Of a stretch of 64,000 nt of DNA, positions 14,427 through 31,972 are shown in pieces; position 1 is the stretch's first letter; every line of letters begins with the position of its first letter. The DNA comes from Nocardioides luteus. Lineage in GTDB: Bacteria > Actinomycetota > Actinomycetes > Propionibacteriales > Nocardioidaceae. The notes beneath the pieces were generated by a model that saw only the letters and a list, made by a program, of their open reading frames with translations, ran no database searches and was not told where the DNA came from. The position numbers were made by a program, and so were the translations under genes. The stretch lies in assembly GCF_015752315.1 (NCBI RefSeq), contig NZ_JADOVJ010000001.1, positions 3,216,501-3,280,500 on the forward strand, in the 5' to 3' direction.

Positions 14427-14453
14427 CGGATGATTGGACGAAAGGACGGCACG

Positions 14454-15110
14454 GTGCCGCTCTCCACCACCACGCCTCGCTCCCTGGTCGACCAGGCGAT
14501 CGACGGCATGCGCGAGCTGCTCGCCGACGGCGAGTGGGCCGTCGGCGCTCGCATCCCGCCCGAGCCCGAGCTCGCGGCGGCACTCGGCGTCAGCCGCAAC
14601 ACCGTGCGCGAGGCGGTGCGGGCGCTGGCCCACACCGGCGTGCTGGAGGTGCGACGCGGGGACGGGACGTACGTCGCCGCCGCCAACGAGGTCGCCGCGA
14701 TGATGCGGCGCCAGGTCGGCCGGGTCGACCTGCGGCACGTCCTCGAGGTCCGCCACGCGATCGAGACCCGGGCCGCGGCGCTGGCCGCCGAGCGTCGCTC
14801 CGACGACGACCTGCGGGCCCTGACCGCCGTCATGGCCCGGCGCACCGCCGCGGTCGCGGCCGGCGACGCCGCTGCCTTCGCGGAGGCCGACGCGGAGTTC
14901 CATCTCGGCGTGGTCACCGCCACCCACAACCCCTTCCTCATCGAGCTCTACGCGGGCTTCGAGGACACCCTGCGCGCGACCATCCACCTCGACGACGAGA
15001 CCGCCGAGATCGCCGACGAGCACGTCGCCGTCTTCGACGCGATCCGCGCCCAGGACCCCGACGCCGCCGCGGCCGCCGTCACCGGCCTGCTCCACACCCT
15101 CGCCCGATAG
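14454..15110 (+). CDS. GntR-family regulator, FadR subfamily
   Basis: A 218-residue regulator with an N-terminal winged helix-turn-helix (RIPPEPELAAALGVSRNTVR, then EAVRALAHTGVLEVRRGDG) and a C-terminal all-helical FCD domain (VRHAIETRAAALAAE, FHLGVVTATHNPF). The FCD histidines and Asp normally hold a metal and a carboxylate effector. GTG 14454 is preferred over ATG 14430 because AAAGGA sits six bases before it. The start region is shared with the divergent MFS gene, so the most likely target is that transporter. Confidence 0.88.
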   Translation: MPLSTTTPRSLVDQAIDGMRELLADGEWAVGARIPPEPELAAALGVSRNTVREAVRALAHTGVLEVRRGDGTYVAAANEVAAMMRRQVGRVDLRHVLEVRHAIETRAAALAAERRSDDDLRALTAVMARRTAAVAAGDAAAFAEADAEFHLGVVTATHNPFLIELYAGFEDTLRATIHLDDETAEIADEHVAVFDAIRAQDPDAAAAAVTGLLHTLAR

Positions 15111-15147: not shown

Positions 15148-15864
15148 ATGATCGAGTTCGTCAAGCTGATCGTCGATGTGGTCCTCAGGGCCGTCCCGGG
15201 GATCGTCAGCAGGAACGAGCGCGACAGGGCGGCACAGCTCGGGGCGGACCTGTTCCTGCTCTACGTACAGATCAACGAGGTGCTCGTACGGGCGGAGCAG
15301 ATCGTCACCGAGATGGAGCGCTACGACCGGTCGGCCGGCCCAGAGCTCGCCGGGGCGCGCCGGGCGCTGCTGCGGCTGGTGCCGGAGCAGATCGCCGACA
15401 TCCAGGTGATCGCGGAGCGTCTCGACGGCCTGCGGTGGGAGCTCCAGGTGCTCGACGGCCAGTCCGCTCTCGCGCTCGACCTCCTCCTCGACCTCAAGTT
15501 CTCGGCGCTGGATCTGCTCTCGCACGCGCTCAGCCTCGACCACCTCCCGCTCGGAACGACGAGCGTGGAGGTCGACGACGAGGGGATCCGGTTGCCGCAG
15601 ATCCGGCCGACCCACGAGGCCCGCTGGATGGTGTGCCGCAACCTGCGCGACGAGCTCGGCGGGGACCACCCCACCCGGGACGACGAGGCACGCCGCATCC
15701 GGGCTTATCTCGCGCACCGGCAGCCACGGGAGGAGATGCGGGCGATCCGGGAGAGCCTGGAGACGCTGCGCGAGGCGATCGCGGCCAATTTCACGATCCA
15801 GGACATTCTGATCCGGGCCGGCGACCCACGCCTCGACCGCAGGCGCCGGCGCCGGTTCCGCTAG
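15148..15864 (+). CDS. Hypothetical protein
   Basis: A 238-residue protein that I do not recognise. The N-terminal third (FVKLIVDVVLRAVPGIV) is moderately hydrophobic and the rest is long amphipathic helix rich in Glu, Arg and Leu, with an acidic insert around EVDDEGIRLPQIRPTHEARW and a strongly basic tail (DRRRRRRFR). No cysteine or histidine cluster stands out. ATG 15148 begins 37 bases after the GntR gene, so they may be cotranscribed. The 3' end overlaps the convergent membrane protein by four bases. Confidence 0.7.
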   Translation: MIEFVKLIVDVVLRAVPGIVSRNERDRAAQLGADLFLLYVQINEVLVRAEQIVTEMERYDRSAGPELAGARRALLRLVPEQIADIQVIAERLDGLRWELQVLDGQSALALDLLLDLKFSALDLLSHALSLDHLPLGTTSVEVDDEGIRLPQIRPTHEARWMVCRNLRDELGGDHPTRDDEARRIRAYLAHRQPREEMRAIRESLETLREAIAANFTIQDILIRAGDPRLDRRRRRRFR

Positions 15865-18078: not shown

Positions 18079-21000
18079 CTAGTTCGGAGTGGCGCGCCAG
18101 CGCTGCGAGCCGGCCGCGGAGTCGGTCTGCTGGATCACCAGTCCGTCGGCACGGGCCACGAGACTGAGACCGCTGTGCTTGGCGGAGATCTTCAGGGCAG
18201 CGCCGTCGGCCGCGATCACCCAGCGCTGGTTGGCCGTGCCGGTGCAGGTGTACTCCACGACCGGGTCACCGCTCGTCCTCGAGCTGTAGGCGACGTCGGC
18301 GCACAGCCCGGTGCCGGCGTTCTTCAGCTGGTAGCTGCCGTCGTCCTCGTTCCGGGTGACCACCCACTTCTGCGACGCCGCCGCCCCGACCGCCGACGTG
18401 GTCAGCTGGCCGTCGCTGGTCCCGGTCGCCGCGTCGAGCGCGAGCCCGGAGGCGGCGTTGCCGAGCGAGTACTGGCCGTCCGCCAGCGCCGGCGGGACGA
18501 CCTCCTCGTCACCGACCGTCATCGCGAACACGTGCACCGCCGCGTTGGCGGGCAGCGTGACGGCCGCGATCTCCTTGGCGGGGTCGGTGCGCAGGGTCTT
18601 GGTGAACAGCCGGTAGGAGACGGTCGGGTAGGCCGGACCGCTCGGGGTGTTCTTCCCCAGGGTGGTGACGGCCACCTTGGCGCCGTAGCTGTCGGTCGCC
18701 GCGCAGCACCAGTTGGGGAAGCCGAGCGTCCCCGTGGACGAGGTGCCGTCGGCGTAGTGGACCGTTGCCTTCCCGGCTGCCGACAGGCTGGTGCCGGTCC
18801 CGAGGAACGCCAGCGCGTTGCCCCGTCCGCCGATCCTGATGGTCTCGCCGCCGGAGGCCACGTTGTCCTTCGTGCCCGGCACGGAGTCCGGCCAGGTGAA
18901 GTCGAAGCCGTTCGCACTCACCCTCGCTCCGGGGGTGACGCCCTTCTCGGCGAGCTTGCCGGCGAGGAAGCTGCTGCCCCCGCCGTCGATGTCGCCCGGG
19001 GCCGGGTCCTCGGCCCTGGTGACACCCACGTTGTCGAACGCCGAGGCCAGGTCCGGGTGAGCGACGGTGGTGGTGGCCGAGTCGGTCACCGCGTACGTCC
19101 GGTCGTGGGTCACGTACGTCGCGTTCACGTCGATCCGGACGCGCCCGGGTTCGGCGTCGGCCGGCGGAGTGACGCCGAAGGTCGCGGTGCGGGAGGCACC
19201 CGGGGCGAGACCCCCGGAGACCTCAGCGGCCGGGCGTACGTCCCAGCCCTCGGGTGCGGTGGCCGTGATCGACTCGAGCTGCACGCGGGAGCCGGTGTCG
19301 TTGGTGAAGGTGGCGCTGACCTCAGCCTCCTCACCGGCGACCGCGATCGCGGAGGTGGTGGCATCCAGGCTCACATTGCGGTCGCCCGGGTGGCCGCCGC
19401 CGACGGCCGAGGAGCCGTTGAGCGAGACCACGGCCGCCGCGGACGTGGACAGCTTCCCCGTCTTCACCGACGTGATGCCCGTCGCGGCATCGTGGAACCA
19501 TCCGGTCGCGGCGCCCTCCAGCTCAGCGGCGGAGCCCCGCTGCGGCAGCTCCTCGCCGCCCAGCTCCACGCTGCCCGGCTCGGCATCGGCATGCACCGCG
19601 AGGCCGTACTCGCGCGAGGCCGGCTTGCCGGCGTAGGAGCCGTCGACCTTCCCCAGCCGCACCACGACGCGGCCGCGGCCCTCCTCGGGGGCGTCCACCT
19701 CGAACTTCTGGGTGGCGGACTCGCCCGAGGCGTGCGCCTGGCTGCGACCGTCGTCCTCGTAGTTCACGAACGACGAGGACCCCTGCGGGTAGATGTCCAG
19801 GTCGAGGCGGCCCGACTTCTTGCCCTGCTGCCAGTCGAGCGTGCCCTCGGGGAACTGCGGCACGACCGCCCCGGCGCGTACGAACAGCGGCAGGGTGTCC
19901 AGCGGGGCCTTGTAGCCGTCGATCGTGGTCGGCCCCTGGTGGACCCGGCCGCTCCAGTAGTCGACCCAGGTGCCTTCGGGCAGGTAGATCCCGTCGCGGG
20001 TCGTGGCGTCCTCGTAGACCGGGGCGACCAGGAAGTCGTCACCGGCGAGGAACTCGTACTTCACGTCGTCGCCCCAGGTCTTCGGGTCCTCGGGGTAGTT
20101 CAGGTAGAGCGGCTTGACCGCACCGACGCCGTTGCGGTGGGCGCGCATCGTGTGCGTGTAGAAGTAGGGCAGCAACCGCTCGTGCAGGCTCAGATACTTC
20201 CGGTTGATCGAGGTGTACGGCTCGCCGTAGCGCCACGGCTGCTTGTCGGAGGCCGCCCACCCGCTCATCAGGTAGGTCATCGGCAGGAACATCTTCCACT
20301 GCATGTCCCGGACGTACGTCTCGGCGCTGCCGCCGAAGATGCCGTCGACGTCGCCGGTGGCGAGGTGCTGGCCGGACATGGTGGAACCGGCGTACGTCGG
20401 GATCTGCCAGCGGATGTAGTCCCAGCTCCCGGACTGGTCGCCGCTCCACACCGCGGCGCAGCGCTGGGTGCCGGCCCAGCCTTCGACGGTGAGGACGGTC
20501 GAGCGGTCGGTGCTGTTGGTCTCGATGCCGTCGCGGGCCTGCTCGCAGGCGTCGAGCGCGAAGCGGTAGCCCGGACCGACCCAGGCGACGTCGGTCTTGC
20601 GGACGCGTACGCCGGCCTGGACCTCGCTCTCCTGCTCGGTGAGGTCGTCCTCGGTCCACAGGCCGAGCTCGGCGCCGTGATCGTTGAGCATGTCGCCGGT
20701 CTCGGCCAGGTCCTCGTAGCCACAGCCGTAGCCGTCGTTGACCAGCATCCAGCCCAGCGGCAGGTCGTGCTCGGCGTAGCCCTCGGCGATCGCGGTGGAG
20801 TCGCGCAGGGTCTCGCGCTCGCCACGGTTGGCGTTGTGGAGGTAGCAGTCGGCGTCGCCGACCTCGAGGGCGTACATCGGGACAGCGACCGGCCGGCCGG
20901 TCAGCTCGGTGTAGGAGTCGATGACGCGCTCGGCGTCACCGACGAAGTAATAGGCGTCGAAGCGCTGCTCGTCGTGGGTCGTCGTGGTCGGCGCGCCGAA

Positions 21001-21687
21001 GTCGTAGCTGCCGGGAGCGAAGGTGTTGCGCAGCACGCCGTAGCCGCGGGAGGAGACGTAGAACGGCACCGCGTTGGGGTTGCCGCCGTCGTTCCAGTTG
21101 AAGTCGCGCGAGATCTTGATCGTCTCGCCGCGGTGGCTGAACCGGCCGTTCTGCATCCCGCCGCCGAAGAATTGCTCCTCGGCACCGCGCTCCAGGTGCT
21201 GCGCCGTGCCGTTGTCGTCCCAGGTCAGTGGCGAGGACTCCGCCATCAGCACGCGTCCGCTCGGGTCGGTGAGACGCAGCGTGATCGGCCGCTTCGTCAC
21301 GGTCAGCACGGCCTCGCCGGTGCTGATGACGTACGCCGCGTCGGTCTCCTTCACCTGCGACCGCCCGCCGGGGTAGTCGCGCTTGACGACGATGTCGGCG
21401 TCCGGAGCACCGGGGTCGGTGGGGTCCTCGTTGGCCGGGTCGTCGAACTCGCCGTTCGGGGCCAGGCGTACGCGCACCATGTCGGCGTCCTCGAAGGTCA
21501 CGCGCAGTGCGGCCTCTCCGGAGGCGAAGGTGTAGCTGTCGCCGTCGTGCTCGAAGCCGGTGACGTCGCCGAGCTCGTTCGTCGCCTCGGCCGCCACCGA
21601 GCTCACCGGGCTGAGTGCGACCAGGCCTGCGGCCAACGCGACGCCCGTGACCAGAAACCGTCTGAATGATTGATTGAACATGATCAC
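18079..21687 (-). CDS. Secreted glycoside hydrolase family 31, alpha-N-acetylgalactosaminidase-like, with NEW3 and ricin-type lectin domains
   Basis: A 1,202-residue exported hydrolase. Residues 1-33 form a signal peptide (RRFLVTGVALAAGLVALSP). The GH31 catalytic part covers about 40-700; RKTDVAW places the nucleophile at Asp366 by comparison with the KTDFG motif of YicI, and VWSGDQSG places the acid/base at Asp417. The stretch GDVDGIFGGS (445-454) resembles what I recall of the GH31 alpha-GalNAcase group (Nag31-type). A NEW3-like domain (about 780-860), a galactose-binding-like domain (880-1030) and a C-terminal ricin-B lectin with QKW/QRW repeats follow. GTG 21687 is favoured because AGGG lies six bases upstream. 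It ends the predicted O-glycan operon and should remove terminal alpha-linked GalNAc outside the cell. An alpha-galactosidase or other alpha-hexosidase activity is possible. Confidence 0.85.
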   Translation of the reverse strand: MIMFNQSFRRFLVTGVALAAGLVALSPVSSVAAEATNELGDVTGFEHDGDSYTFASGEAALRVTFEDADMVRVRLAPNGEFDDPANEDPTDPGAPDADIVVKRDYPGGRSQVKETDAAYVISTGEAVLTVTKRPITLRLTDPSGRVLMAESSPLTWDDNGTAQHLERGAEEQFFGGGMQNGRFSHRGETIKISRDFNWNDGGNPNAVPFYVSSRGYGVLRNTFAPGSYDFGAPTTTTHDEQRFDAYYFVGDAERVIDSYTELTGRPVAVPMYALEVGDADCYLHNANRGERETLRDSTAIAEGYAEHDLPLGWMLVNDGYGCGYEDLAETGDMLNDHGAELGLWTEDDLTEQESEVQAGVRVRKTDVAWVGPGYRFALDACEQARDGIETNSTDRSTVLTVEGWAGTQRCAAVWSGDQSGSWDYIRWQIPTYAGSTMSGQHLATGDVDGIFGGSAETYVRDMQWKMFLPMTYLMSGWAASDKQPWRYGEPYTSINRKYLSLHERLLPYFYTHTMRAHRNGVGAVKPLYLNYPEDPKTWGDDVKYEFLAGDDFLVAPVYEDATTRDGIYLPEGTWVDYWSGRVHQGPTTIDGYKAPLDTLPLFVRAGAVVPQFPEGTLDWQQGKKSGRLDLDIYPQGSSSFVNYEDDGRSQAHASGESATQKFEVDAPEEGRGRVVVRLGKVDGSYAGKPASREYGLAVHADAEPGSVELGGEELPQRGSAAELEGAATGWFHDAATGITSVKTGKLSTSAAAVVSLNGSSAVGGGHPGDRNVSLDATTSAIAVAGEEAEVSATFTNDTGSRVQLESITATAPEGWDVRPAAEVSGGLAPGASRTATFGVTPPADAEPGRVRIDVNATYVTHDRTYAVTDSATTTVAHPDLASAFDNVGVTRAEDPAPGDIDGGGSSFLAGKLAEKGVTPGARVSANGFDFTWPDSVPGTKDNVASGGETIRIGGRGNALAFLGTGTSLSAAGKATVHYADGTSSTGTLGFPNWCCAATDSYGAKVAVTTLGKNTPSGPAYPTVSYRLFTKTLRTDPAKEIAAVTLPANAAVHVFAMTVGDEEVVPPALADGQYSLGNAASGLALDAATGTSDGQLTTSAVGAAASQKWVVTRNEDDGSYQLKNAGTGLCADVAYSSRTSGDPVVEYTCTGTANQRWVIAADGAALKISAKHSGLSLVARADGLVIQQTDSAAGSQRWRATPN

Positions 21688-21741
21688 ATCACGCCCTAAT
21701 TAGTCAGAATCAATCGAAGCCGAGGGCGAGCGTAGCGTGGG

Positions 21742-22593
21742 TCACACGGCGCGGTCCACCCTCGGTCCACCGATCAGGGCGAGCAGGCGCGCGGCCTCGC
21801 CGGCGACCGCGTCACGGCCGGCGCCGAGGTACTTGCGGGGGTCGACCTTCGTCTCGTCCGTCAGCGCCGCGCGCACGGCTCGGGTGAACGTCGCGTTGAG
21901 GTGGGTCGCGATGTTGACCTTGGTCATCCCCGCGGCGATCGCCGCGACGATGCCCTCGTCGGGAACCCCGGAGGAGCCGTGGAGGACGAGCGGCACGTCG
22001 ACGGCATCGGCGAGCCGGGCGATGAGCTCGTTGTCGAGCGAGGCCGTACGCGTCGTCATCGCGTGCGAGGAGCCGACCGCGACGGCGAGCGCGTCGACCC
22101 CGGTGGCCTCCACGTACGCCGCGGCCTCGTCCGGCCGGGTGCGGACCCCGGGTGCGTGCACGCCGTCCTTGCCGCCCACCTCGCCGAGCTCGGACTCGAT
22201 GGAGGCGCCGCGCTCGTGGCACCAGGCCGCGACCTTGGCCGTGGCGGCCACGTTCGAGTCGTAGTCGAGCTTGGAGGCGTCGAACATCACCGAGGGACAG
22301 CCCAGCTCGACGGCCTCCTCGACGAGCTCGACGCGGGTCGCATGGTCGAGATGCACGCACACCGGCACCGTGGCCCGCTCGGCGATCGCGAGGGTCGCCC
22401 CCAGCAGCGGCCCGAGAGCACCACGGTAGTCGGCGGTGTTCTCGGAGATCTGCAGGACGACCGGGCGGCCGGCCTGCTCGGCGCCGGCCACGATCGCCTC
22501 GGCCAGCTCGAGCTGGATGACGTTCATCGCGCCCAGCCCGCGTCCGGTCCCGCGGGCGTTGTCGAGCAGCAGCGACATCGGTACCAGCGGCAT
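21742..22593 (-). CDS. gatY: Class II tagatose/fructose-1,6-bisphosphate aldolase
   Basis: A 283-residue zinc-dependent aldolase. The motif VCVHLDHA (Asp83 as catalytic acid, His84 as zinc ligand), ESELGEVGG, SSHAMTT (His177) and VLHGSSG (His205) are the class II signature in the right order. The short length and sequence style fit the GatY/KbaY branch, which splits tagatose-1,6-bisphosphate to dihydroxyacetone phosphate and glyceraldehyde-3-phosphate. ATG 22593 follows AAGGAG at seven bases and starts one base after the stop of the PfkB kinase gene. With that kinase and the AgaS-like enzyme it would finish GalNAc catabolism. Fructose-bisphosphate as substrate cannot be excluded. Confidence 0.87.
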   Translation of the reverse strand: MPLVPMSLLLDNARGTGRGLGAMNVIQLELAEAIVAGAEQAGRPVVLQISENTADYRGALGPLLGATLAIAERATVPVCVHLDHATRVELVEEAVELGCPSVMFDASKLDYDSNVAATAKVAAWCHERGASIESELGEVGGKDGVHAPGVRTRPDEAAAYVEATGVDALAVAVGSSHAMTTRTASLDNELIARLADAVDVPLVLHGSSGVPDEGIVAAIAAGMTKVNIATHLNATFTRAVRAALTDETKVDPRKYLGAGRDAVAGEAARLLALIGGPRVDRAV

Positions 22594-22594
22594 G

Positions 22595-23506
22595 TCAGGG
22601 CTCCTTGTGGTCGATCCGTGCGACGCTGAGGCTTGCCAGGACCGAGGCGTACGTCTCGGTGTCGATCTCGCCGGCGACCGGCGTGGCCACCGCGGCGGCG
22701 CCCAGCGCGGCGGCATCGCGGAGGATCTCCGGCCACGGCCTGCCGTGGGCGAGGCCGCGGGCGATCCCCGCGGCGGTGGCGTCGCCGGCACCGGTCGGAT
22801 TTCCGGCGATCCCGGCAGGCGGGCTCACCTCCCAGCAGACGCCGTCGGCGCATGCGATCAGCCCGAGGCGTCCCCGGGTCAGCACGATCGGTCCGCCGTG
22901 TCGGGTGGCGAGCTCGGTGACCGCTGCGACCGGGTCCTCGGGGGCGTGCCAGAGAAGGCGTGCGGCCTCGTCCTCGTTGGGCGTCAGCACGGCGCCGGTC
23001 CCGACCGCGGCCGCGAGGGCGGCGTCGTCGAGATCGAGGAGGACCGGGACCCCGGCGGCAGCGGCGAGGCGTGCGATCCGTGCCGGCAGGTCGACGGGCA
23101 CGCCGGGGGCCAGGCTGCCGGAGACGGTGAGAGCCGTCGCGTCCACGACCCAGTCCCCAAGGAGGTCGAGCATCCGCAGGTCTGCGCCGGGCGCGGCCTG
23201 CCGGCCCGGCTCCCACAGCGAGGTCGTCGACCCGGTGGCGGCGACGACCACGGTGCGGCGTACCTCCTCGAGCTCGGGCAGGAAGGTGGAGGGCAGCTCG
23301 CTCGCCAGGGCTTCGGCGAAGGCATCGTCGGCAAGACCGACGGCATGCGTCGGCTCGCCCAGCTGGTGCAGCACCCGGGCGACGTTGACGCCCTTGCCGC
23401 CGAGGCGGCTGGTGACCTCGGCGACCCGGTGGACCTCGCCGACGGTCAGCCGGGGCAGCCGGTAGGTCACGTCGATCGCCGGGTTGAGCGTGACCGTGAG
23501 GATCAT
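22595..23506 (-). CDS. PfkB-family hexose-phosphate kinase (tagatose-6-phosphate or 1-phosphofructokinase)
   Basis: A 303-residue PfkB-type sugar kinase. It begins with the FruK/LacC-type N-terminus MILTVTLNPAIDVTY, has the sugar-binding GGKGVNVARVLHQLG (36-50), and the ATP/catalytic motif NPTGAGDATAAG with Asp242 as the base. In this operon the expected reaction is ATP-dependent phosphorylation of tagatose-6-phosphate at C1, feeding the aldolase encoded next. The family also includes 1-phosphofructokinases, which are very similar. ATG 23506 overlaps the stop of the ROK gene by four bases (ATGA), so translation is coupled. Confidence 0.87.
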   Translation of the reverse strand: MILTVTLNPAIDVTYRLPRLTVGEVHRVAEVTSRLGGKGVNVARVLHQLGEPTHAVGLADDAFAEALASELPSTFLPELEEVRRTVVVAATGSTTSLWEPGRQAAPGADLRMLDLLGDWVVDATALTVSGSLAPGVPVDLPARIARLAAAAGVPVLLDLDDAALAAAVGTGAVLTPNEDEAARLLWHAPEDPVAAVTELATRHGGPIVLTRGRLGLIACADGVCWEVSPPAGIAGNPTGAGDATAAGIARGLAHGRPWPEILRDAAALGAAAVATPVAGEIDTETYASVLASLSVARIDHKEP

Positions 23507-24414
23507 GGGTTCGTCCTCACCGCGGCCAGGGCCAGCCGGGCGGCACCGACCAGACCGGCTCGGCCGCCGAGGGCGGAGAGGCGTACGGGCGGGACCGCCG
23601 TGACGCCGGCCCGCTCGCGCATCCGGGCCTGCAGCGGGTCGAGCAGGGCTCTCCTGGCCTCGGCGACGCCGCCGCCCAGGATGATCTCGCCGGGCGCGAG
23701 CAGGGCACCGACCGCGAGGAACCCGTCCGCGAGCGCGGTGATCGCCGCGGACCAGACCTCGGCGGCGAGGCGGTCGTACTCCGCCCGCGCGACCAGCTCG
23801 GCCACGCCGGAGACCCTGATGTCGCCGCCCAGCGACGCATACCTCTCCAGCATCGCGCGCGCACCCACGTACGCCTCCACGCAGCCGCGCAGCCCACAGC
23901 CGCACCGCGGCCCAGCCGGGTCGACCACCAGGTGGCCGATCTCGCCGGCCTGCCCGGAGACCCCGAGGATCGCCCTCCCCCCGACGTACGTCACCGCAGC
24001 AACACCCGTCCCGAGCACGGCCACGAACGCGGAGGCCGGCGAGCCGGCGTCCTCCCAGATCGCACCCGCGGCAGCGGCCGTGTCGTGCACGACCGTGACC
24101 GGAAGACCCAGGCGCTCGGCGAGCGGGGCCGCCACGAGGGTGTCGACGAGACCGAGGTTGACCGCCCTGCGGGAGATACCGGCCTCGGCGTCGACGAGAC
24201 CGGGGAAGGCGACCCCGACGCCGGCCACCTCCGCGCGAGCCGCGGGACTCAGGCCGGCGAGGAGCCCTTCACCCATCCGCGCGATGTCGTCGAGCACCGC
24301 CGGACCGGTCCGGGTGGCCACCCGCGACTCGGCGATCACCACGTCTGCGGCGCCGACCACCGCTCCGCGCACCGAGGTGCCGCCGACGTCGAAGGCCAGG
24401 GCGAGCGCCGGCAT
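23503..24414 (-). CDS. ROK-family sugar kinase (candidate N-acetylgalactosamine kinase)
   Basis: A 303-residue ROK protein. The N-terminus has the phosphate-binding DVGGTSVRGAVV, a second ATP motif appears at VAVLGTGVAAVTYVGG, and the ROK zinc-binding signature HLVVDPAGPRCGCGLRGC is intact (CxCGxxGC). There is no N-terminal helix-turn-helix, so it is a kinase rather than a ROK repressor. In the operon it fits phosphorylation of imported GalNAc to GalNAc-6-phosphate. GTG 24417 is an alternative start; I use ATG 24414, which overlaps the upstream stop by one base (TGATG). Substrate choice is inferred from neighbours; glucose or GlcNAc kinase activity is possible. Confidence 0.85.
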   Translation of the reverse strand: MPALALAFDVGGTSVRGAVVGAADVVIAESRVATRTGPAVLDDIARMGEGLLAGLSPAARAEVAGVGVAFPGLVDAEAGISRRAVNLGLVDTLVAAPLAERLGLPVTVVHDTAAAAGAIWEDAGSPASAFVAVLGTGVAAVTYVGGRAILGVSGQAGEIGHLVVDPAGPRCGCGLRGCVEAYVGARAMLERYASLGGDIRVSGVAELVARAEYDRLAAEVWSAAITALADGFLAVGALLAPGEIILGGGVAEARRALLDPLQARMRERAGVTAVPPVRLSALGGRAGLVGAARLALAAVRTNP

Positions 24415-25334
24415 CACGCTGGAGGGGCGGCAGTCGGGTCGAGGATGATCGAGCGCGTGAGGTTGCGCGGCGCGTCGGGATCGAGCCCGGCTCGCCGGGC
24501 CCGCTCGACGCAGAGCAGGTGCACGCGCACCAGCTCGGCGAGCGGGTCGACCTCGTCGTGGATCAGGTCGGCGCCGGTGACCGCGACGTCCTCGGCGAAC
24601 CCGGGCACCAGGTCACCGAAGGCCCACACGACCCGGCCGGGTGCGCTGATCGAGAGCGGACCGTGGCGGTACTCCATCATCGGGTAGGACTCGGTCCACA
24701 GCTGCGCGGACTCCCGCAGCTTGAGGGCCGCCTCCTGGGCCACGCCGTTGGTCCAGCCTCGGCCGACGAAGGTGAGCTGGTCGGCGGTCAGCGCCGGGCC
24801 GAACCCGCTGACGCCGGCGTCGATGATCCGCTGGGCCTGCTCGGCGGCCAGGCTCAGGTCGCGGCCGAGGTGCCAGCGCAGCATGGCGAGCGCGGTGGTC
24901 GCGAAGCGGGTCTGGACCACCGACTTCTCGTCCACCTCGGGCATCAGGATCGGCTCCGCCAGCTCGAGCGCCGGGGTGCCGGGCGAGGAGGAGATCACCG
25001 AGGCCGGGATCTTGCCGTTGACGCGGGTGAGCAGGTCGATGACCTCGGTCGTGGTTCCGGACCGGGTGATGGCGAGCAGCCGGTCGTAGCCCCGGTCGAT
25101 CCGGGCCTCGGTCGGCGTCCAGGCGTCGGTGACGCCCTGGCCCTGCTCCTCCCGGAGCGCGGCGTAGGCCTGTGCCATGTAGAGCGAGGTGCCGCAGCCG
25201 ACGACCGCGACCTTCTCCCCCGGCCGCGGCAGGGCGCCGGCGTTGCGTTCGGCGGTGCTCCTGGCGGCCATCCAGTTGGCGGGCTGGGTCGCGATCTCGG
25301 CAGCGAGATGTGTCGTCGGTGCTGGTCCGGTCAT
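24414..25334 (-). CDS. agaS: SIS-domain aldose-ketose isomerase/deaminase, AgaS-like
   Basis: A 306-residue double SIS-domain protein. The first SIS domain carries VAVVGCGTSLYMAQAYAAL and LLAITRSGTTTEVIDLL; the second carries FVGRGWTNGVAQEAALKLRE and the late motif YRHGPLSI. This is the layout of AgaS and of the isomerase half of GlmS. AgaS converts galactosamine-6-phosphate to tagatose-6-phosphate plus ammonia. The start ATG 25334 lies only about 8 bp after a GGATGA element that can serve as -10 box, so the mRNA may be leaderless; TTG 25349 is a weaker alternative. It is the first metabolic gene after the DeoR regulator. Confidence 0.85.
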   Translation of the reverse strand: MTGPAPTTHLAAEIATQPANWMAARSTAERNAGALPRPGEKVAVVGCGTSLYMAQAYAALREEQGQGVTDAWTPTEARIDRGYDRLLAITRSGTTTEVIDLLTRVNGKIPASVISSSPGTPALELAEPILMPEVDEKSVVQTRFATTALAMLRWHLGRDLSLAAEQAQRIIDAGVSGFGPALTADQLTFVGRGWTNGVAQEAALKLRESAQLWTESYPMMEYRHGPLSISAPGRVVWAFGDLVPGFAEDVAVTGADLIHDEVDPLAELVRVHLLCVERARRAGLDPDAPRNLTRSIILDPTAAPPA

Positions 25335-25341
25335 GGCTGAA

Positions 25342-25390
25342 TCATCCAACGCATTGATCGTTTATGTCAATAACGGTGCTTAAATGATCA
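25342..25390 (-). promoter_or_regulatory. Promoter and DeoR-type operator upstream of agaS
   Basis: The short AT-rich gap between the DeoR gene and agaS carries TTGACA (25370-25365, minus strand) and GGATGA (25347-25342) with a 17-bp spacer. Near-palindromic arms TGATCGTTTA (25355-25364) and TAAATGATCA (25381-25390) bracket the -35 box, one mismatch apart from perfect. One arm overlaps the stop codon of the DeoR gene. This is a plausible binding site for that regulator and would let the catabolic genes be induced separately from the GH101 gene. The assignment is from sequence pattern only. Confidence 0.55.
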
Positions 25391-26173
25391 TTTTCGCTCA
25401 CCAGCAATCACGATCTCCGCCCCCTGCTCGGCCAGCGCCTTTGCTAGCGCCTCGGGCACCGCACGGTCGGTGACCAGCATGGAGACGCTGTCGAGGTCGC
25501 GGATGCGCGCGAAGGTCGGGTGCTCGAGCTTCGTGCTGTCGGCCACGACGATGGTGCGCTGCGCGGCCGCGATGAAGTCGGCGCTGATCTTGGCCTCGGC
25601 CGGGTGGATCGTGGTGAGCCCGGCACGGGTGCTGATGCCGTCGACGCCGAGGATCGCGGTGTCGATGTTGATCTTCGACAGCACGCCCTCGCTCAACGGG
25701 CCGACCAGCTCGTAGGACTGGGTGCGGGCGGCGCCACCGGTCACCACGATGTTGACGTTGGGCCGGATCGAGAGCTCGTAGGCGATGTTGAGCGCGTTGG
25801 TGACGACCGTGATGCTGTCGTCCTCGGCCAGGTCGGGGTGGCGCCCGATCGAGCGGGCCACCTCGCTGGTCGTCGTCCCGCCGTTGAGCGCCACGGTCTC
25901 GCCCGGCACGAGCAGGTCCGCGACCGCGGCCGCGATCGCCCGCTTGGCCTCCGCCTGGCGGCCGATCTTGTACTGCAACGGCAGCTCGTACGCCGAGCCG
26001 AGCGCCGTCGCGCCGCCATGTGTCCGGGTGACCAGCCGCTGGTCGGCGAGGTGCCCGATGTCGCGGCGGGCGGTCGCCGCCGAGACACCGAGCGCGCTCT
26101 CCACCTCCGCGATCGAGACGTGCCCGTGCTCGCTGATCAGCTCGAGCAGCTGGTTGAGTCGCTGTTGTCTCAT
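25388..26173 (-). CDS. DeoR-family transcriptional regulator (AgaR-like)
   Basis: A 261-residue DeoR repressor. The N-terminal helix-turn-helix is RQQRLNQLLELISEHGHVS, then SAATARRDIGHLADQRLVTR with the GGATAL hinge, followed by the sugar-phosphate-binding domain (LVPGETVALNGGTTTSEVA, VVTNALNIAYEL, LGVDGIST). Members bind phosphorylated sugars as inducers; AgaR responds to the GalNAc/GalN pathway. ATG 26173 has AGGAAGGGGG upstream. It sits between the GH101 gene (38 bp upstream) and agaS (53 bp downstream) and next to a matching dyad, so it most likely controls this locus. Confidence 0.88.
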   Translation of the reverse strand: MRQQRLNQLLELISEHGHVSIAEVESALGVSAATARRDIGHLADQRLVTRTHGGATALGSAYELPLQYKIGRQAEAKRAIAAAVADLLVPGETVALNGGTTTSEVARSIGRHPDLAEDDSITVVTNALNIAYELSIRPNVNIVVTGGAARTQSYELVGPLSEGVLSKINIDTAILGVDGISTRAGLTTIHPAEAKISADFIAAAQRTIVVADSTKLEHPTFARIRDLDSVSMLVTDRAVPEALAKALAEQGAEIVIAGERK

Positions 26174-26211
26174 GGGCCCCCTTCCTGGGTCCCGGACAGC
26201 CTACGCAGATC

Positions 26212-29200
26212 TCACCCTCCGCAGTGGAAGGTCGCGTCGGCCCAGTCGCCGTGGTCGTTGCCGTTCCCGTCGCCGGCATCGCCGACCACGAGGTCGACGT
26301 AGTCGGCGCCGGTGACGTCGGCGGTGATCGACGCGGTGGCGCTGGCCGGCCCGAGCGTGCCGGTCTCGGCGACCGTCCGGCCGTCCGCGACGACCGAGAA
26401 CCTCACCGAACCCCGGGTTGTCTGGACGTCGTCGACCCCCACGTCGGCGGTGAAGCCGGTGCAGTTGCCGGCCAGGTAGTAGCGGACCGTCGAGACGGCG
26501 TGCGCGCCCAGCCCCTTGGCGTAGACCTTGCCGGCGAGCGTGATCGGCCCGCCGTCGCCGGCGGCGTTCTCCCCCACGCTGGTGTCGCGCTCGACCGGCC
26601 CCCAGCCGTTGCTGGCCGAGATCCAGCCGAGATCGCTGGCATAGGTGTCCGCGGCCGGCGGGGGCGGTGCGGTCTGCACCGTGGCCGCGCGCGTCACCGT
26701 GCGGGTCTTCCCACCGACGTCGTACGTCGCGGACGCATCGAGCCGATAGCTCGACTCGGCCGCATCGGCGGGCGGCGTGACCTTCCAGGTGACGGCATGA
26801 CGCTCTCCCGGAGCGAGCGCGTCGAACGCCGCCGGGGTGGTGGCCTCCGCCGTCCACCCGTCGGGGACGTCGAGGGCGATCAACCCGGTGCCGGTCGCCG
26901 ACGCCTCGTCGCTGGTCAGTGTCGTGGTGACCTCGGCGGCCGCGCCCGGCAGCAGCTTCTCCTCACCGGCGTCGACGGCGAGGGTGGCGCAGGCCGGCAG
27001 GTCGCCGGCCTCACCGAGGTCCTCGACGGTGAAGTCGTCGATGCTGATGTCGCCGCTCGCTCCGTTCTCGTCCGCGGTCCGCAGGCCGACCCAGTAGTCG
27101 CCGCAGCCGCCAGCCACGAGCTCGTCGCTGAACCGGGCCGTCTCGACCTGTCTGCCGATCGGGCGGGCAGCGACCTCGACCGAGCGCGGCTCGCCGCTCG
27201 CGACCGAGTCGTAGCCCGTCACCCACTCGTAGTCGTCGGCCCGCTCGGTCTGGTGGTCGAAGGAGACCCGGTAGCGGTGGCCGGGCTCGAGACGTACGGT
27301 CTGCGGGACCGTGCGGTAGACGAGGCCGCCGTTCTCGGCGTGCGACTTCAGCGACCAGTCGCCGCTGATCACGTCATCGGTGACCTTGCCGTTCCAGCCG
27401 CTCTGCGTGTACGGCTCGTGCCGCTCGGCCAGGTGGGTGCGCGGGTCGGTGACGCCGCCCGAGGTGCCCTTGACGAACGGCGACCACCCCTGGACGACCT
27501 CCTCGAAGTCCTCCTGGGCGACGACCTTCGCCCCCGGCGCGGCGGGCAGATCGCGGTCGATCGGGACGACGCGTACGTCATCGAGACGGACACGACCCGA
27601 GCCCGCCTCCGCGGAGATCTTGACGGTCGCGGTGCCATCGTGGGCGGCGTCGAAGGGCACCTCGACCCGCTGGAAGTAGGTGCTGTGCAGCTCGTCGGCG
27701 GCGACCAGGTTCTTCGCGGTCGAGCGCTCGACGCGGTTGGTGTAGGTCTTCCCGCCGGAGGTGACGGTGACCGTGGTGGCGCGGCTGTGGCCGGGCTCGA
27801 CCTCGACCCAGACGCCCAGCGCGTTGCGGCCGCTGCGCAGGCCGGTCAGGCGCTGGCTGATCGCGGCCTTCCCGCCGGCGCCCAGGACGGCGACCCGCTG
27901 CCCGGTCGAGGTACGTCCCGTCGCGGCCGACCCGCTGGGGTGCCACGCGTCGAGGGTGCCGGCGTTGAAGCCGGGGTCGGCGATGTGGCTGCCCTGACCC
28001 CACTGCGGGTCGGGCGAGCCGCCGGGAGACTTCGTGAGGACGTACGCCGTCCCGGGCTTCGCGTCGAGCGTGACCTTCCCGGAACGGACCGGCACGCTGC
28101 CGGCCGCGACCCGGCCCTGCTCGGTGAGCCGGTAGACGTTGAGCCGGCTGCTGTCGCTCCACCCGTCGGTGAGGCTCCAGGTGGTCCGGCCGCCGTCGGT
28201 GTTGTAGTGGTAGAGCTTCGAGTCGTTCTTCCACGGGAGCAGGTAGGCGTCGCCGTCGAGGACGAGGTCGCCGTCCTGGTAGATCTTCCGGGTCGCCGCG
28301 GTCGTGCCGGTGTTGACGACGCGGACGCCGCCGTCCTGGACGACCTCGTCCGGGCTCCAGCGCAGGATCGGGTTCTGCTGGAGATACTTGGTCGGCAGGT
28401 TCGTCCGCCAGATGTTGTCGTAGAAGGCGTCGACGTCGTTCTCGCCGGTCCAGCCCTCGAACTCGACGATCTCGGTGTGCCCGAGCAGCTTGTCGGGGTT
28501 CCAGGTGTCCTTCTGGCCGTTGCGTACGAACCGGATCAGCTGGCTGTTCAGGCCCTTGTTGGTGGCACCACCGTAGGACTCGTCGTTGGCCCAGTGGGAC
28601 CAGAGCGCGTCCTCCTCGAAGTGGTAGGACCACTCGGTGCCGATGTTCCAGCCCTGGCCGCGCAGCTCCCGGGCGAGCCGCTCCTGCAGCCAGCCGTAGG
28701 AGTAGTAGACGTCGATGTAGAGGAAGTCGAGGTTCGGGTGCGTCTCGCGGCGCAACTGGGCGAAGCGGTCGACGATGTTCTTCGTCGCGAGGTCGGTGCG
28801 CTGGTCGATGTAGTAGGACTGGTCGATCCAGTCCCAGCCGGGGCTGTTCTCGTTCACGAGGGTCTCGTCGAAGGTCTTGGCCTCGGGGTAGGCCTCGGTC
28901 GCGTTGACGTGGACCCCGAAGTCGGCGCCCCACTTCTCGCCCTCATGGGCGAGGGTGTTGAGGTCCTCGAGACCGCCGGCGCGGGTGTTGTAGTTGCCGC
29001 CGTAGTCGGGGTGCGCGGAGTCGTGGCCCTCGGAGCCGTAGCCCTTCAGCACCGCCAGCTGACCCAGCCCGTCGGTGGCCAGCGAGACCCGCTTGACGTC
29101 GTCGAGCGTACGCAGGAACGGATGCGTCGCCTGGCTGGCGAAGTTGAACGGGATGTGGGTGACCACCCGCTCGGGCGTCTCGTCCGCGCCGTTCACCGGC

Positions 29201-30057
29201 CGCTGGATGTCGCGGAGCGCGATCGCGCCGTCCTGCCAGTCGACCCGCTGGTCGTCGTTGGCGTCGGGGGTGATGGTGACCTTCGCCCACGGGAGCTCCT
29301 CGGTGTAGGGCGAGCCGGCCGCGCGGTAGGTCCACTGGCCGCTCCACAGCCCGACCCGGCGGCCGTCGTCGGTGGCACTCACGCTGCGCCAGATCCGGCC
29401 GCGCTCGTTGGTCGCGTCGCCACCGCTCTGGTCGTAGACCGAGTTGGTCTCGATGGCGGCGGCCAGCTGGTCGGTGTCGACGATGGCGTACGCCGATCCG
29501 ACCGGCTTCTCGGTCGTGGCCAGGTCCGCGGTCACCTCGGTGTGGGTGTCGCCGTTCTTGGTGCGGTCGGCGCTGACGACGGCGGTGCTCACCGTCGCGC
29601 CGGCCTGGTCAGAGCTGACCGACAGGAGATCGTGTCCGGGGATGTCGAGGGTGCCGACCCGGTGCTCGGCGGTGTCGGTGATCTCGGTGACGGCGAAGGT
29701 GACGACGTCACCGGCGACCTCGAGCTTCGCGTCGAGCTCGACGCCGGGCACGTCGGCGAAGGTCAGCCGGTAGGTCGCGGTGTCGGCGTCGACCTGGGTG
29801 CCGGTCACGGTCGCGGTGTGCACGCTGCCGTTGATCCGTACGGAGGTGGGCAGCGTCGAGGCGCCGCCGACCTCGCCGCCGGCGGTGTGCCGGTAGCCGA
29901 GCACGGCCGGGAAGTCCTCGGCCACCTGGACGGTCAGCACGGACGAGGTCAGGGTGAAACCGCCCGCGGGGGCGGCGTGGCCTTCGGGCGCGACGGCGAC
30001 CACGCCGGCGAAGGCCGTCACGGACGCGAGGAGGGCGGTGGGGAAACGCTTCGGCAT
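26212..30057 (-). CDS. Secreted GH101 endo-alpha-N-acetylgalactosaminidase with carbohydrate-binding modules
   Basis: A 1,281-residue exported enzyme. ATG 30057 follows GGGAG and starts a signal peptide (FPTALLASVTAFAGVVAVAP). A beta-rich N-terminal domain leads into the catalytic barrel (about 270-560), where FLYIDVYYSYGW contains the likely nucleophile Asp449 and GTEWSYHFEEDALWSHW the likely acid/base glutamate (475, 481 or 482). Galactose-binding-like modules follow, then a NEW3-type domain and a C-terminal NPCBM-like domain (DLGWISASNGWGPVERD onward). GH101 enzymes release intact Gal-beta-1,3-GalNAc from serine/threonine of mucin-type glycoproteins. There is no LPXTG or other wall anchor, so it is probably released. 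It heads the predicted O-glycan operon and is divergent from a GH35 gene. Confidence 0.9.
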   Translation of the reverse strand: MPKRFPTALLASVTAFAGVVAVAPEGHAAPAGGFTLTSSVLTVQVAEDFPAVLGYRHTAGGEVGGASTLPTSVRINGSVHTATVTGTQVDADTATYRLTFADVPGVELDAKLEVAGDVVTFAVTEITDTAEHRVGTLDIPGHDLLSVSSDQAGATVSTAVVSADRTKNGDTHTEVTADLATTEKPVGSAYAIVDTDQLAAAIETNSVYDQSGGDATNERGRIWRSVSATDDGRRVGLWSGQWTYRAAGSPYTEELPWAKVTITPDANDDQRVDWQDGAIALRDIQRPVNGADETPERVVTHIPFNFASQATHPFLRTLDDVKRVSLATDGLGQLAVLKGYGSEGHDSAHPDYGGNYNTRAGGLEDLNTLAHEGEKWGADFGVHVNATEAYPEAKTFDETLVNENSPGWDWIDQSYYIDQRTDLATKNIVDRFAQLRRETHPNLDFLYIDVYYSYGWLQERLARELRGQGWNIGTEWSYHFEEDALWSHWANDESYGGATNKGLNSQLIRFVRNGQKDTWNPDKLLGHTEIVEFEGWTGENDVDAFYDNIWRTNLPTKYLQQNPILRWSPDEVVQDGGVRVVNTGTTAATRKIYQDGDLVLDGDAYLLPWKNDSKLYHYNTDGGRTTWSLTDGWSDSSRLNVYRLTEQGRVAAGSVPVRSGKVTLDAKPGTAYVLTKSPGGSPDPQWGQGSHIADPGFNAGTLDAWHPSGSAATGRTSTGQRVAVLGAGGKAAISQRLTGLRSGRNALGVWVEVEPGHSRATTVTVTSGGKTYTNRVERSTAKNLVAADELHSTYFQRVEVPFDAAHDGTATVKISAEAGSGRVRLDDVRVVPIDRDLPAAPGAKVVAQEDFEEVVQGWSPFVKGTSGGVTDPRTHLAERHEPYTQSGWNGKVTDDVISGDWSLKSHAENGGLVYRTVPQTVRLEPGHRYRVSFDHQTERADDYEWVTGYDSVASGEPRSVEVAARPIGRQVETARFSDELVAGGCGDYWVGLRTADENGASGDISIDDFTVEDLGEAGDLPACATLAVDAGEEKLLPGAAAEVTTTLTSDEASATGTGLIALDVPDGWTAEATTPAAFDALAPGERHAVTWKVTPPADAAESSYRLDASATYDVGGKTRTVTRAATVQTAPPPPAADTYASDLGWISASNGWGPVERDTSVGENAAGDGGPITLAGKVYAKGLGAHAVSTVRYYLAGNCTGFTADVGVDDVQTTRGSVRFSVVADGRTVAETGTLGPASATASITADVTGADYVDLVVGDAGDGNGNDHGDWADATFHCGG

Positions 30058-30160
30058 CGAGACTCCCGAGGGTGGGGGTGGGCCTGAGGTTCCGTCCATC
30101 ATGCAGAGTTTTGCGCGGATTGGCTACGTTATGAGCAAAAGTTGTCATAGCCTCGGGCGG
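30058..30160. promoter_or_regulatory. Shared control region between GH101 and GH35 genes
   Basis: This 103-bp divergent region includes an AT-rich core unlike the surrounding DNA. It holds an inverted repeat TTTTGC / GCAAAA (30109-30114 and 30135-30140) and an overlapping dyad TATGA / TCATA (30130-30134 and 30145-30149) extended by CAA / TTG with a one-base asymmetry. These are good candidates for a regulator site serving both genes. I could not fix convincing -35/-10 pairs. The dyads differ from the TGATC-type arms in front of agaS, so the DeoR protein may not be the factor that binds here. Confidence 0.45.
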
Positions 30161-31972
30161 GTGACCCCCACCTTGGCCTGGCAGGACGGCGAGTTCCTGA
30201 AGCACGGCGTCCAGCACCGGATCCTGTCCGGCTCGATCCACTACTTCCGCATCCACCCGGACCTGTGGGAGGACCGGCTGCGCCGGGTCGCCGCCACCGG
30301 CTTCAACACCGTCGACACCTACGTCGCCTGGAACTTCCACGAGCCGGACGAGGGGTCCCCGGACTTCACCGGACCTCGCGACCTGGCCCGTTTCGTCACG
30401 ATCGCCGGCGATCTCGGGCTGGATGTGATCGTCCGCCCCGGGCCCTACATCTGCGCCGAGTGGACCAACGGCGGGCTGCCCTCATGGCTGACCGCGCGCA
30501 CCCGAGCACCGCGCAGCAGCGACGCGGTCTATCAGGACGCGGTCGCTCGCTGGCTCGACGTCCTGCTTCCCCGGCTCGTCCCGCTCCAGGCCGGCCACGG
30601 CGGACCGGTCGTCGCGGTGCAGCTCGAGAACGAGTACGGCTCCTACGGCGACGACGCCGCGCATCTCGTCTGGCTCCGCCAGGCGCTCCTCGACCGCGGC
30701 GTCACCGAGCTGCTCTACACCGCCGACGGTCCGACCGACGTCATGCTCGACGCCGGCATGGTCGAGGGCACCCTCGCCGCGGCGACGTTCGGCAGCCGCG
30801 CCACGGAGGCCGCGACGAAGCTGAGCGCGCGACGGCCCGGCGAGCCGTTCCTGTGCGCCGAGTTCTGGAACGGCTGGTTCGACCACTGGGGCGAGAACCA
30901 CCACGTCCGCTCCCCCGAGAGCGCCGCCGCGACGCTGCGGGAGATCGTCGACCTCGGTGGCTCGGTCAGCGTCTACATGGCCCACGGTGGGACCAACTTC
31001 GGGCTCTGGGCCGGGTCCAACCACGACGGCCGCCGGATCCAGCCCACGGTCACGAGCTACGACTCCGACGCGCCGGTCGGCGAGGACGGCCGGGTCTCGG
31101 AGAAGTTCCGGCTCTACCGCGAGATCCTCGCGCCGGCCACCGGGCGCACCGTCGACGAGCTGCCCGCGCTGCCACCCACTCCCGCGCGGCACGCGCAGGC
31201 CTCGGTGCCGCTCGTGCCCGGCGCCGACCTGCTCTCGTTGGTGACGCGCAAGCCGGCGACCCGTGCGGCGCGGCCGCTGAGCTTCGAGGAGCTGGGCATC
31301 GACACCGGCCTGGTGACGTACCGGTCCTCGGTCACGCTCCCCGGCCACGACGTCCATCTCACCGTGCGCGGGCTGCACGACCGGGCGTACGTCTTCCTCG
31401 ACGGGGAGCCGCTCGGCATCCTCGAGCGCGACGACGCCGAGCCCGCGATGCTCACGCTTCCCGGCCTCGGCAGGGTCGCCGAGCTGACCCTGGTCGTCGA
31501 GGCGCTCGGCCGGGTCAACTACGGCCCGCTGCTCGGCGAGCACAAGGGCATCCTCGGCGGCGTCCAGGTGGACCGGCGCCTCGTCCACGGCTGGAACCAC
31601 CACCTCGCTCCCCTCGACCGCTGGGACGACCTCGACGGTCTCCCCCACGCCACCTTCGAGGTCGAGGCGCCCGCCGACGGCTGGCTCGCCGTCCCGGGCG
31701 ACGGTGACCGGTTCGTCTGGCTCAACGGCACCCTGCTCGGCCGGCTCTGGGCCCGCGGACCACAACGACGCCTCTACGCCCCCGCTCCCCTGTGGCGCGC
31801 CGGCGCCAACCAGGTCGCCGTCCTCGACCTCACCACCCCGGCGACCCACGTCGAGGTGCACCCGGACCCGGACTTCGGACCGAGCGAGGAGTACGTCGAG
31901 TCGCTGCCGACCGGCACTCAGCCCAGTCGCCGCAAGGCGGCCTCGGCCGCATGGAACCCGCCCATGCCGTGA
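30161..31972 (+). CDS. GH35 beta-galactosidase (cytoplasmic)
   Basis: A 603-residue family 35 beta-galactosidase. Typical features are ILSGSIHYFRIHPDLWEDRL, VDTYVAWNFHEP, RPGPYICAEWTNGGLP, the acid/base Glu158 in QLENEYGSYG and the nucleophile Glu234 in FLCAEFWNGWFDHWG; jelly-roll beta domains fill the C-terminal half. GTG 30161 is preferred since the family's N-terminus starts there and the upstream ATG 30131 lies in a likely operator. There is no signal peptide, so it should act inside the cell, for instance on imported Gal-beta-1,3-GalNAc released by the GH101 enzyme. The 3' end overlaps the convergent oxidoreductase gene by 55 bases, which is long for such pairs. Confidence 0.88.
   Translation: MTPTLAWQDGEFLKHGVQHRILSGSIHYFRIHPDLWEDRLRRVAATGFNTVDTYVAWNFHEPDEGSPDFTGPRDLARFVTIAGDLGLDVIVRPGPYICAEWTNGGLPSWLTARTRAPRSSDAVYQDAVARWLDVLLPRLVPLQAGHGGPVVAVQLENEYGSYGDDAAHLVWLRQALLDRGVTELLYTADGPTDVMLDAGMVEGTLAAATFGSRATEAATKLSARRPGEPFLCAEFWNGWFDHWGENHHVRSPESAAATLREIVDLGGSVSVYMAHGGTNFGLWAGSNHDGRRIQPTVTSYDSDAPVGEDGRVSEKFRLYREILAPATGRTVDELPALPPTPARHAQASVPLVPGADLLSLVTRKPATRAARPLSFEELGIDTGLVTYRSSVTLPGHDVHLTVRGLHDRAYVFLDGEPLGILERDDAEPAMLTLPGLGRVAELTLVVEALGRVNYGPLLGEHKGILGGVQVDRRLVHGWNHHLAPLDRWDDLDGLPHATFEVEAPADGWLAVPGDGDRFVWLNGTLLGRLWARGPQRRLYAPAPLWRAGANQVAVLDLTTPATHVEVHPDPDFGPSEEYVESLPTGTQPSRRKAASAAWNPPMP

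Follow-up and report, generated by a model that had tools for sequence, protein, structure and literature searches.

A conserved candidate operon for mucin-type O-glycan and N-acetylgalactosamine utilisation in Nocardioides luteus

Organisation of the locus

The window analysed here is a stretch of 64,000 nucleotides of the Nocardioides luteus genome, which consists of one contig of 5.82 Mb (C1; the window spans C1:3216501–3280500). At window positions 18079–31972 it holds eight genes, seven on the minus strand and a divergent one on the plus strand. Together they probably form an operon that breaks down the core of mucin-type O-glycans, in which N-acetylgalactosamine (GalNAc) is alpha-linked to Ser or Thr. 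The minus-strand genes lie in the order GH101, DeoR, SIS, ROK, PfkB, aldolase and GH31, with GH35 divergent (GH, glycoside hydrolase). All eight carry Pfam domains above the curated cut-offs, which confirms the layout described in an initial annotation made from the sequence alone. The features are as follows.

30131–31972, plus strand: predicted GH35 beta-galactosidase, probably cytoplasmic (Pfam GH35, 349.5 bits; PDB 4mad, 4e8c)
30058–30130, no strand: intergenic region between the divergent GH101 and GH35 genes, presumed to be a shared regulatory region from a side-by-side reading of relatives
26212–30057, minus strand: predicted GH101 endo-alpha-N-acetylgalactosaminidase, probably secreted, with an NPCBM module (PF12905, 410 bits; PDB 6qfo)
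25388–26173, minus strand: DeoR-family regulator, AgaR/GlpR-like (PF00455, 151 bits; HTH_DeoR, 60 bits)
24414–25334, minus strand: SIS-domain phosphosugar deaminase/isomerase, predicted galactosamine-6-phosphate (GalN-6-P) deaminase (Pfam SIS, 32 bits)
23503–24414, minus strand: ROK sugar kinase, predicted GalNAc (6-)kinase (PF00480, 142.6 bits; motifs DVGGT and GCGLRGC)
22595–23506, minus strand: PfkB-type kinase, predicted tagatose-6-phosphate kinase (PF00294, 118 bits; TIGR03168)
21742–22593, minus strand: class II ketose-bisphosphate aldolase, predicted tagatose-1,6-bisphosphate aldolase (PF01116, 272 bits)
18079–21681, minus strand: predicted GH31 alpha-N-acetylgalactosaminidase (GH31_18-like), probably secreted, with NEW3 and ricin-lectin domains (PDB 6m76/7f7r/7f7q)
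15861–17966, minus strand: accessory membrane protein with DUF4185, directly downstream of GH31 (PF13810, 49 bits)

In the proposed pathway, GH101 would release the core 1 disaccharide Gal-beta-1,3-GalNAc outside the cell, where GH31 would also take bare GalNAc (Tn) off protein, and a permease would import both sugars. Inside, GH35 would cleave the disaccharide to galactose and GalNAc, the ROK kinase would phosphorylate GalNAc to GalNAc-6-phosphate (GalNAc-6-P), and a NagA-type deacetylase encoded elsewhere on the chromosome (C1:4841079–4842086) would convert this to GalN-6-P. The SIS protein would then yield tagatose-6-phosphate by deamination and isomerisation, from which the PfkB kinase and the class II aldolase would produce trioses, with the DeoR protein acting as repressor of the operon.

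The catabolic genes are closely packed and their spacing is operon-like. The gaps measure 38 nucleotides (GH101/DeoR), 53 (DeoR/SIS), 1 (PfkB/aldolase) and 54 (aldolase/GH31), and SIS overlaps ROK and ROK overlaps PfkB, stop/start overlaps that the initial annotation had also noted. The list of open reading frames (ORFs) placed several starts too far upstream; the corrected starts are 22593 for the aldolase, 23506 for PfkB and probably 30057 for GH101. GH35 begins at 30131 (ATG) or 30161 (GTG), and GH31 at 21681 (ATG) or 21687 (GTG). Long opposite-strand ORFs were not called by our own gene caller, which is weak support since the caller was trained on the same genes. Upstream of GH101, TTTTGC/GCAAAA words appear conserved by eye across the eight loci compared. 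In the same eight loci a TTGACA-like stretch and a GGATGAT word, which likewise look conserved by eye, lie upstream of SIS (25335–25387) and are perhaps an internal promoter.

Glycosidases

The cut-off for the GH101 Pfam domain is 25 bits, far below the score of the window protein, which carries six further domains including NPCBM; Gal_mutarotas_3 and Glyco_hyd_101C scored 235 and 95 bits. Its best PDB relatives are fusions of EngBF and other entries named endo-alpha-N-acetylgalactosaminidase (E 5.3e-168 for 6qfo, to 5e-164). In the alignment to the EngBF entry, the motifs IDVY and TEW stand opposite LDVW and TEW, and Asp449 and Glu475 are kept; we take the aligned Asp/Glu pair to be the catalytic residues of EngBF.

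The GH31 protein combines a TIM barrel (89 bits) with mutarotase-like, C-terminal, DUF5110 and ricin-lectin domains in Pfam. Its three best PDB sequences, 6m76, 7f7r and 7f7q, score E 1e-125 to 2e-124, the next one 6.3e-55. Entries 7f7r and 7f7q are named GH31 alpha-N-acetylgalactosaminidase, and EfNag31A is, we assume, the name tied to such structures. In the aligned stretches these two entries depart from 6m76 at one Asp, where they have Asn and Ala, respectively; the window protein has Asp there (Asp366 in the numbering of the 1202-residue ORF), which by this alignment is the nucleophile position, kept. For subfamily GH31_18, the excerpted text of a 2026 paper reports alpha-GalNAc activity alone so far (PMC13096917).

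The nearest PDB entries to GH35 are 4mad (E 5.7e-139) and 4e8c (E 1.9e-110). Both are presumably BgaC-type enzymes preferring beta-1,3 linkages. The N-terminal maxima of 15-residue Kyte–Doolittle profiles, used here instead of a signal-peptide program, are 2.29 and 2.42 for GH101 and GH31 and 0.61 for GH35. The signal peptides of the initial annotation thus have hydrophobic N-termini behind them, and the profiles fit the assigned roles, with GH101 and GH31 probably secreted and GH35 probably cytoplasmic. Since three glycosidases of independent families agree on one target structure, their sequences make a good case for an alpha-GalNAc substrate.

Intracellular enzymes and regulator

The SIS protein exceeds the Pfam cut-off of 25 bits and had first been read as AgaS. 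That family was rejected, as the protein scores 22.6 bits against the AgaS model TIGR02815, whose cut-off is 529.2; the relative in locus L007 (loci of relatives carry L numbers throughout) scores 22.5. It also lies below the cut-offs of the NCBIfam models for GlmD (62.8 against 580 bits) and NagB-II (28.2 against 430 bits). The protein is nearer GlmD than AgaS and could be a GalN-6-P deaminase that is not an orthologue of AgaS. Of the ten SIS matches in the genome, one is the window gene, four belong to two ORFs of 652 and 612 residues with two SIS domains each and a GlmS-like layout, two are ORFs that look by eye like RpiR-type regulators, and three are weak.

PfkB reaches 204 bits with the hexose kinase model TIGR03168, whose cut-off is 216. 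The best NCBIfam model for the aldolase is TIGR01859 (234.5 bits), which is of the fructose-bisphosphate type, followed by GatY at 214.1 bits, both below cut-off. The DeoR protein scores 180 bits with the AgaR model NF040755, for which the cut-off is 260.

Deacetylation and import

The operon holds no deacetylase gene. A genome-wide profile search with TIGR00221 gave one strong match at C1:4841088–4842053 (186.5 bits), within the NagA-type gene at C1:4841079–4842086, and a second, weak match of 22.1 bits. With the deacetylase of L014 as query, the same gene was the sole match in the genome (50% identity, E 4.8e-73). In Escherichia coli, nagA can stand in for agaA (PMC3668189), which makes a NagA shared with a GalNAc route plausible; by this analogy, the chromosomal NagA plausibly serves the operon.

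For import, two kinds of transporter were sought. The EIID-AGA component of an Aga-type phosphotransferase system (PTS) had no match in the genome, in a search whose control was positive in 3 of 14 genomes. The SBP_bac_1 family of solute-binding proteins (SBPs) is found at 23 places, 20 of which were compared with nine SBPs from the SIS loci of relatives (C1:2633453, C1:5042884 and C1:2325771 were left out). The best scores were at 30–32% identity, to L127 (C1:2138500–2142500), and within the set of nine SBPs of relatives the 30 pairs with the highest scores were 41–93% identical.

Downstream of the operon, there is a minus-strand gene at 13203–15095, and in L003 and L006 it is the first conserved gene to follow GH31. 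Its sole family call is MFS_1, with nothing indicating sugar transport. It reads like a CynX-type permease, and we did not assign it as the sugar importer of the operon.

Conservation in Nocardioides

Five named Nocardioides records show the same gene order, three of them lacking one piece each (GH35 in L003, GH31 in L005, GH101 in L006), and this recurrence argues that the locus is not a chance assembly. GH101 is present in 7 of 215 congeners, N. luteus itself included, and in six of these seven (the window and L076–L080) it stands in the order GH101-DeoR-SIS-ROK-PfkB-aldolase. Within the 19 kb read, GH31 accompanies the operon in five of the six (not in L080, N. albus), as does GH35 (not in L079, N. 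turkmenicus). The GH101 proteins of the five other operon-bearing congeners are 88–94% identical to that of the window. The seventh, in L081, is 53% identical and lies outside any such operon; the sole other match to an operon gene nearby is a ROK-family gene, kinase or regulator, directly downstream (7498–8160, minus strand, 33% identity). Congeners L123 and L126 have GH35, DeoR, SIS, ROK, PfkB, aldolase and GH31 without GH101.

Strong matches to the SIS protein (E ≤1e-40) occur in 23 of 209 congeners and, with weak matches included, in 168; among the matches listed, the weak ones are mostly at most 36% identical. A second SIS gene of N. albus (L125, 7969–9724) is 53% identical and has an aldolase and ABC permeases nearby. 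In L126, from the same record as L006, the PfkB match is split in two in a frame-shift-like manner (8927–9828), which may be an assembly error of this metagenome-assembled genome.

The DUF4185 gene at 15861–17966 was matched in L002 and L004 and not in L003, L005 or L006. Its product looks by eye like a membrane protein with DUF4185 at the C terminus, and a PHROGs scan gave no match. DUF4185 is reportedly linked to D-arabinan-degrading enzymes.

SIS loci and GH101 genes outside the N. luteus group

A scan of genome contigs with the SIS protein yielded 53 loci, 51 of them with a called SIS gene, of which five belong to the N. luteus group. For the other 46, genes were counted as sequence clusters from our own gene calls, with part of the members scanned against Pfam; the flanks reach at most 10 kb and are often shorter, so that the counts are lower bounds. 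PfkB and aldolase occur together in at least 16 of these loci, ROK-cluster genes in at least 15, a NagA-type cluster in at least six (three were scanned and each was of the NagA type), ABC-permease clusters in at least 16 (two permeases and one SBP scanned) and an SBP in at least nine. GH31 is present in at least three, GH35 in at least one and GH101 in none within the flanks. The L007 locus contains GH35, ABC permeases, SIS, ROK, a NagA-type gene, PfkB and aldolase. Some relatives thus encode beside SIS the deacetylation and import functions that the window operon lacks, a point in favour of the proposed pathway.

The GH31 proteins of L040, L045 and L048 are 44–46% identical to that of the window and keep the motifs KTDVAW and GWAGTQR...GD. 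In L048 the gene adjoins SIS; in L040 and L045 it lies about 4–5 kb away, with DeoR and ABC genes between. Judged from these alignments, the three loci form a second, separate tie between SIS and alpha-GalNAcase genes. In Micromonospora sp. MP36 a sulfatase gene (L012, 3–1184) directly precedes SIS-ROK-PfkB-aldolase and perhaps points to sulfated GalNAc substrates. A GFO/IDH-domain gene in L013 (4456–5769) was considered as GH109 and rejected, as the names listed by a PDB search were of oxidoreductases and of the GAL80 type, with GH109 not among them.

GH101 itself is common in actinobacteria. Among 391 genomes from the order, 56 carry it, and a protein search returned 1526 homologues; among the 120 listed, the named organisms are all actinobacteria, mostly Streptomyces. 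In ten GH101 regions outside the genus (19 kb long except for one of 10 kb), no other operon gene was matched. Given this frequency in soil actinobacteria, neither GH101 nor the pathway is surprising alone, and the special point is their coupling in one operon.

These comparisons suggest that the lower operon is older, that the L007-like form is the fuller one, and that the N. luteus group lost the deacetylase and the importer and gained GH31 and GH101. We give about even odds to a broader proposal: that the SIS protein represents an uncharacterised, widespread, non-orthologous actinobacterial family of GalN-6-P deaminases replacing AgaS, and that the loss of the deacetylase and ABC importer and the gain of the two secreted glycosidases turned the operon of the N. 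luteus group into a self-contained island with which soil-type bacteria scavenge O-glycans.

Substrate assignment and alternatives

Several results weigh against assignment of the locus to mucin-type O-glycans. The GH101 protein scores 607.5 bits with the NCBIfam SpGH101 model NF040533, below its cut-off of 2900; the model has 1962 positions and the protein 1281–1296 residues. One characterised GH31_18 enzyme is described, in the excerpted text of PMC13096917, as active on pNP-alpha-GalNAc and inactive on more native substrates. Although their families agree with Pfam, all eight operon proteins are below every NCBIfam curated cut-off, including those of every model listed for ROK, PfkB, aldolase, SIS and DeoR, and with scores below all tagatose models sequence does not establish tagatose over fructose intermediates. 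The chromosomal NagA, at 187 bits, falls short of the nagA cut-off of 225.65; the deacetylases of L007, L008 and L014 (194.9–222.5 bits) do so too, which indicates that a low NagA score is common to the group. Neither the EIID-AGA search nor comparison of the 20 SBP_bac_1 places revealed an assignable transporter or a close match to the relatives' ABC binding proteins. Finally, PfkB and aldolase were not both found in 30 of the 46 other SIS loci, which leaves room for further roles of the SIS clade.

The initial annotation had proposed the same pathway, lacking a deacetylase and a transporter, in a genus where it was thought unexpected. Its substrate reading has gained support from the nearest PDB relatives of GH101, GH31 and GH35, and its missing transporter is still missing in the searches above. 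The AgaS identity was given up, the genome search turned up the NagA-type gene, and the spread of GH101 through the order and in Streptomyces removed the surprise at a soil genus.

Among the alternatives, the glycosidases might instead target non-mucin alpha-GalNAc, in the wall or capsule glycans of bacteria or fungi or in glycoproteins of soil organisms, with the intracellular GalNAc route unchanged; the two readings differ in natural substrate only. The soil-type hosts, the GH101 frequency in the order and the lectin or NPCBM modules of undefined target on GH31 and GH101 are in keeping with this, but the relatives with solved structures bear the names endo-alpha-N-acetylgalactosaminidase and GH31 alpha-N-acetylgalactosaminidase and, we assume, act on GalNAc-O-peptides, and we regard such a substrate as possible though doubtful. 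Less likely still is that the SIS protein acts on glucosamine-6-phosphate (GlcN-6-P) or a fructosamine phosphosugar, with PfkB and aldolase of the fructose-1-phosphate type and mixed amino sugars as substrates. Its nearest relatives by sequence and fold are GlcN-6-P deaminases, many relatives bear the name fructoselysine-6-P-deglycase (FrlB-like; JGI), and the PfkB and aldolase scores described above also fit. A canonical NagB is, however, encoded at C1:277730–278470 (241.3 bits, above cut-off), so the SIS protein is not required for GlcN-6-P. A galactose/galactosamine operon, in which GH35 yields galactose, the lower route serves free galactosamine and GH101 was captured by chance, would suit the lack of a deacetylase gene in the operon and of GH101 in L123 and L126, but is improbable, as both congeners retain an alpha-GalNAcase-type GH31 and a deacetylase-type gene occurs in the SIS loci of 6 of 46 relatives and in the N. 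luteus genome itself.

O-glycan catabolism remains our preferred assignment, and from its sequence the locus for O-glycan/GalNAc utilisation appears genuine, coherent and well conserved, with known families as its parts. What sets it apart, as predicted, is how the genes are arranged, the use of a ROK kinase instead of a PTS, and a SIS enzyme that is not AgaS. We found no published description of it in the open-licence PMC literature, which does not show absence from print. Work on the use of mucin-type O-glycans has centred on gut bacteria and pathogens, and a compact locus in soil-type actinobacteria offers a testable case of O-glycan turnover outside animals. This would parallel sialic acid catabolism, for which about 40% of putative actinobacterial carriers are free-living species (PMC8754123). 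Pathway reconstructions use AgaS as a signature gene, as passages of PMC5583593 indicate; should GalN-6-P deamination prove to be the role of the SIS protein, they would overlook such organisms.

Comparison with known systems

The aga/gam system of E. coli relies on PTS uptake and, to our knowledge, includes no glycosidases. Its route runs through deacetylation and deamination by AgaS, with nagA able to replace agaA as proposed here (PMC3668189). E. coli has a true AgaS, whereas the window SIS protein is not AgaS.

In Bifidobacterium, the disaccharide is released by a secreted GH101 and taken up intact, as proposed here, and an N-acetylhexosamine 1-kinase route is followed, unlike the tagatose-6-phosphate route here. 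The galacto-N-biose/lacto-N-biose pathway of these bacteria uses an ABC importer and an intracellular phosphorylase (PMC5583593), in contrast to the hydrolysis proposed for N. luteus.

The Shewanella Aga pathway (AgaP, AgaK, AgaA-II and AgaS; PMC2996990) resembles the present one in having a permease and kinase in place of a PTS, with a deacetylase and a deaminase. It differs in that the deaminase is AgaS and the deacetylase is among the pathway genes, and the excerpts of that paper mention no GH101, GH31 or GH35. In the gnb system of Lactobacillus casei (GnbPTS, GnbG), as portrayed in parts of PMC7366668 and PMC5583593, Gal-beta-1,3-GalNAc is likewise taken up and split inside, and GalNAc proceeds via tagatose-6-phosphate; import is by a PTS and cleavage by a phospho-beta-1,3-galactosidase, whereas N. 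luteus has no EIID-AGA PTS match and a ROK kinase instead. The polysaccharide utilisation locus BT4240-50 of Bacteroides thetaiotaomicron (PMC11992087) also unites core-1/Tn glycosidases and GalNAc phosphorylation in one locus, but does so with SusD-type binding, GH109 and an APH-type kinase acting on O1.

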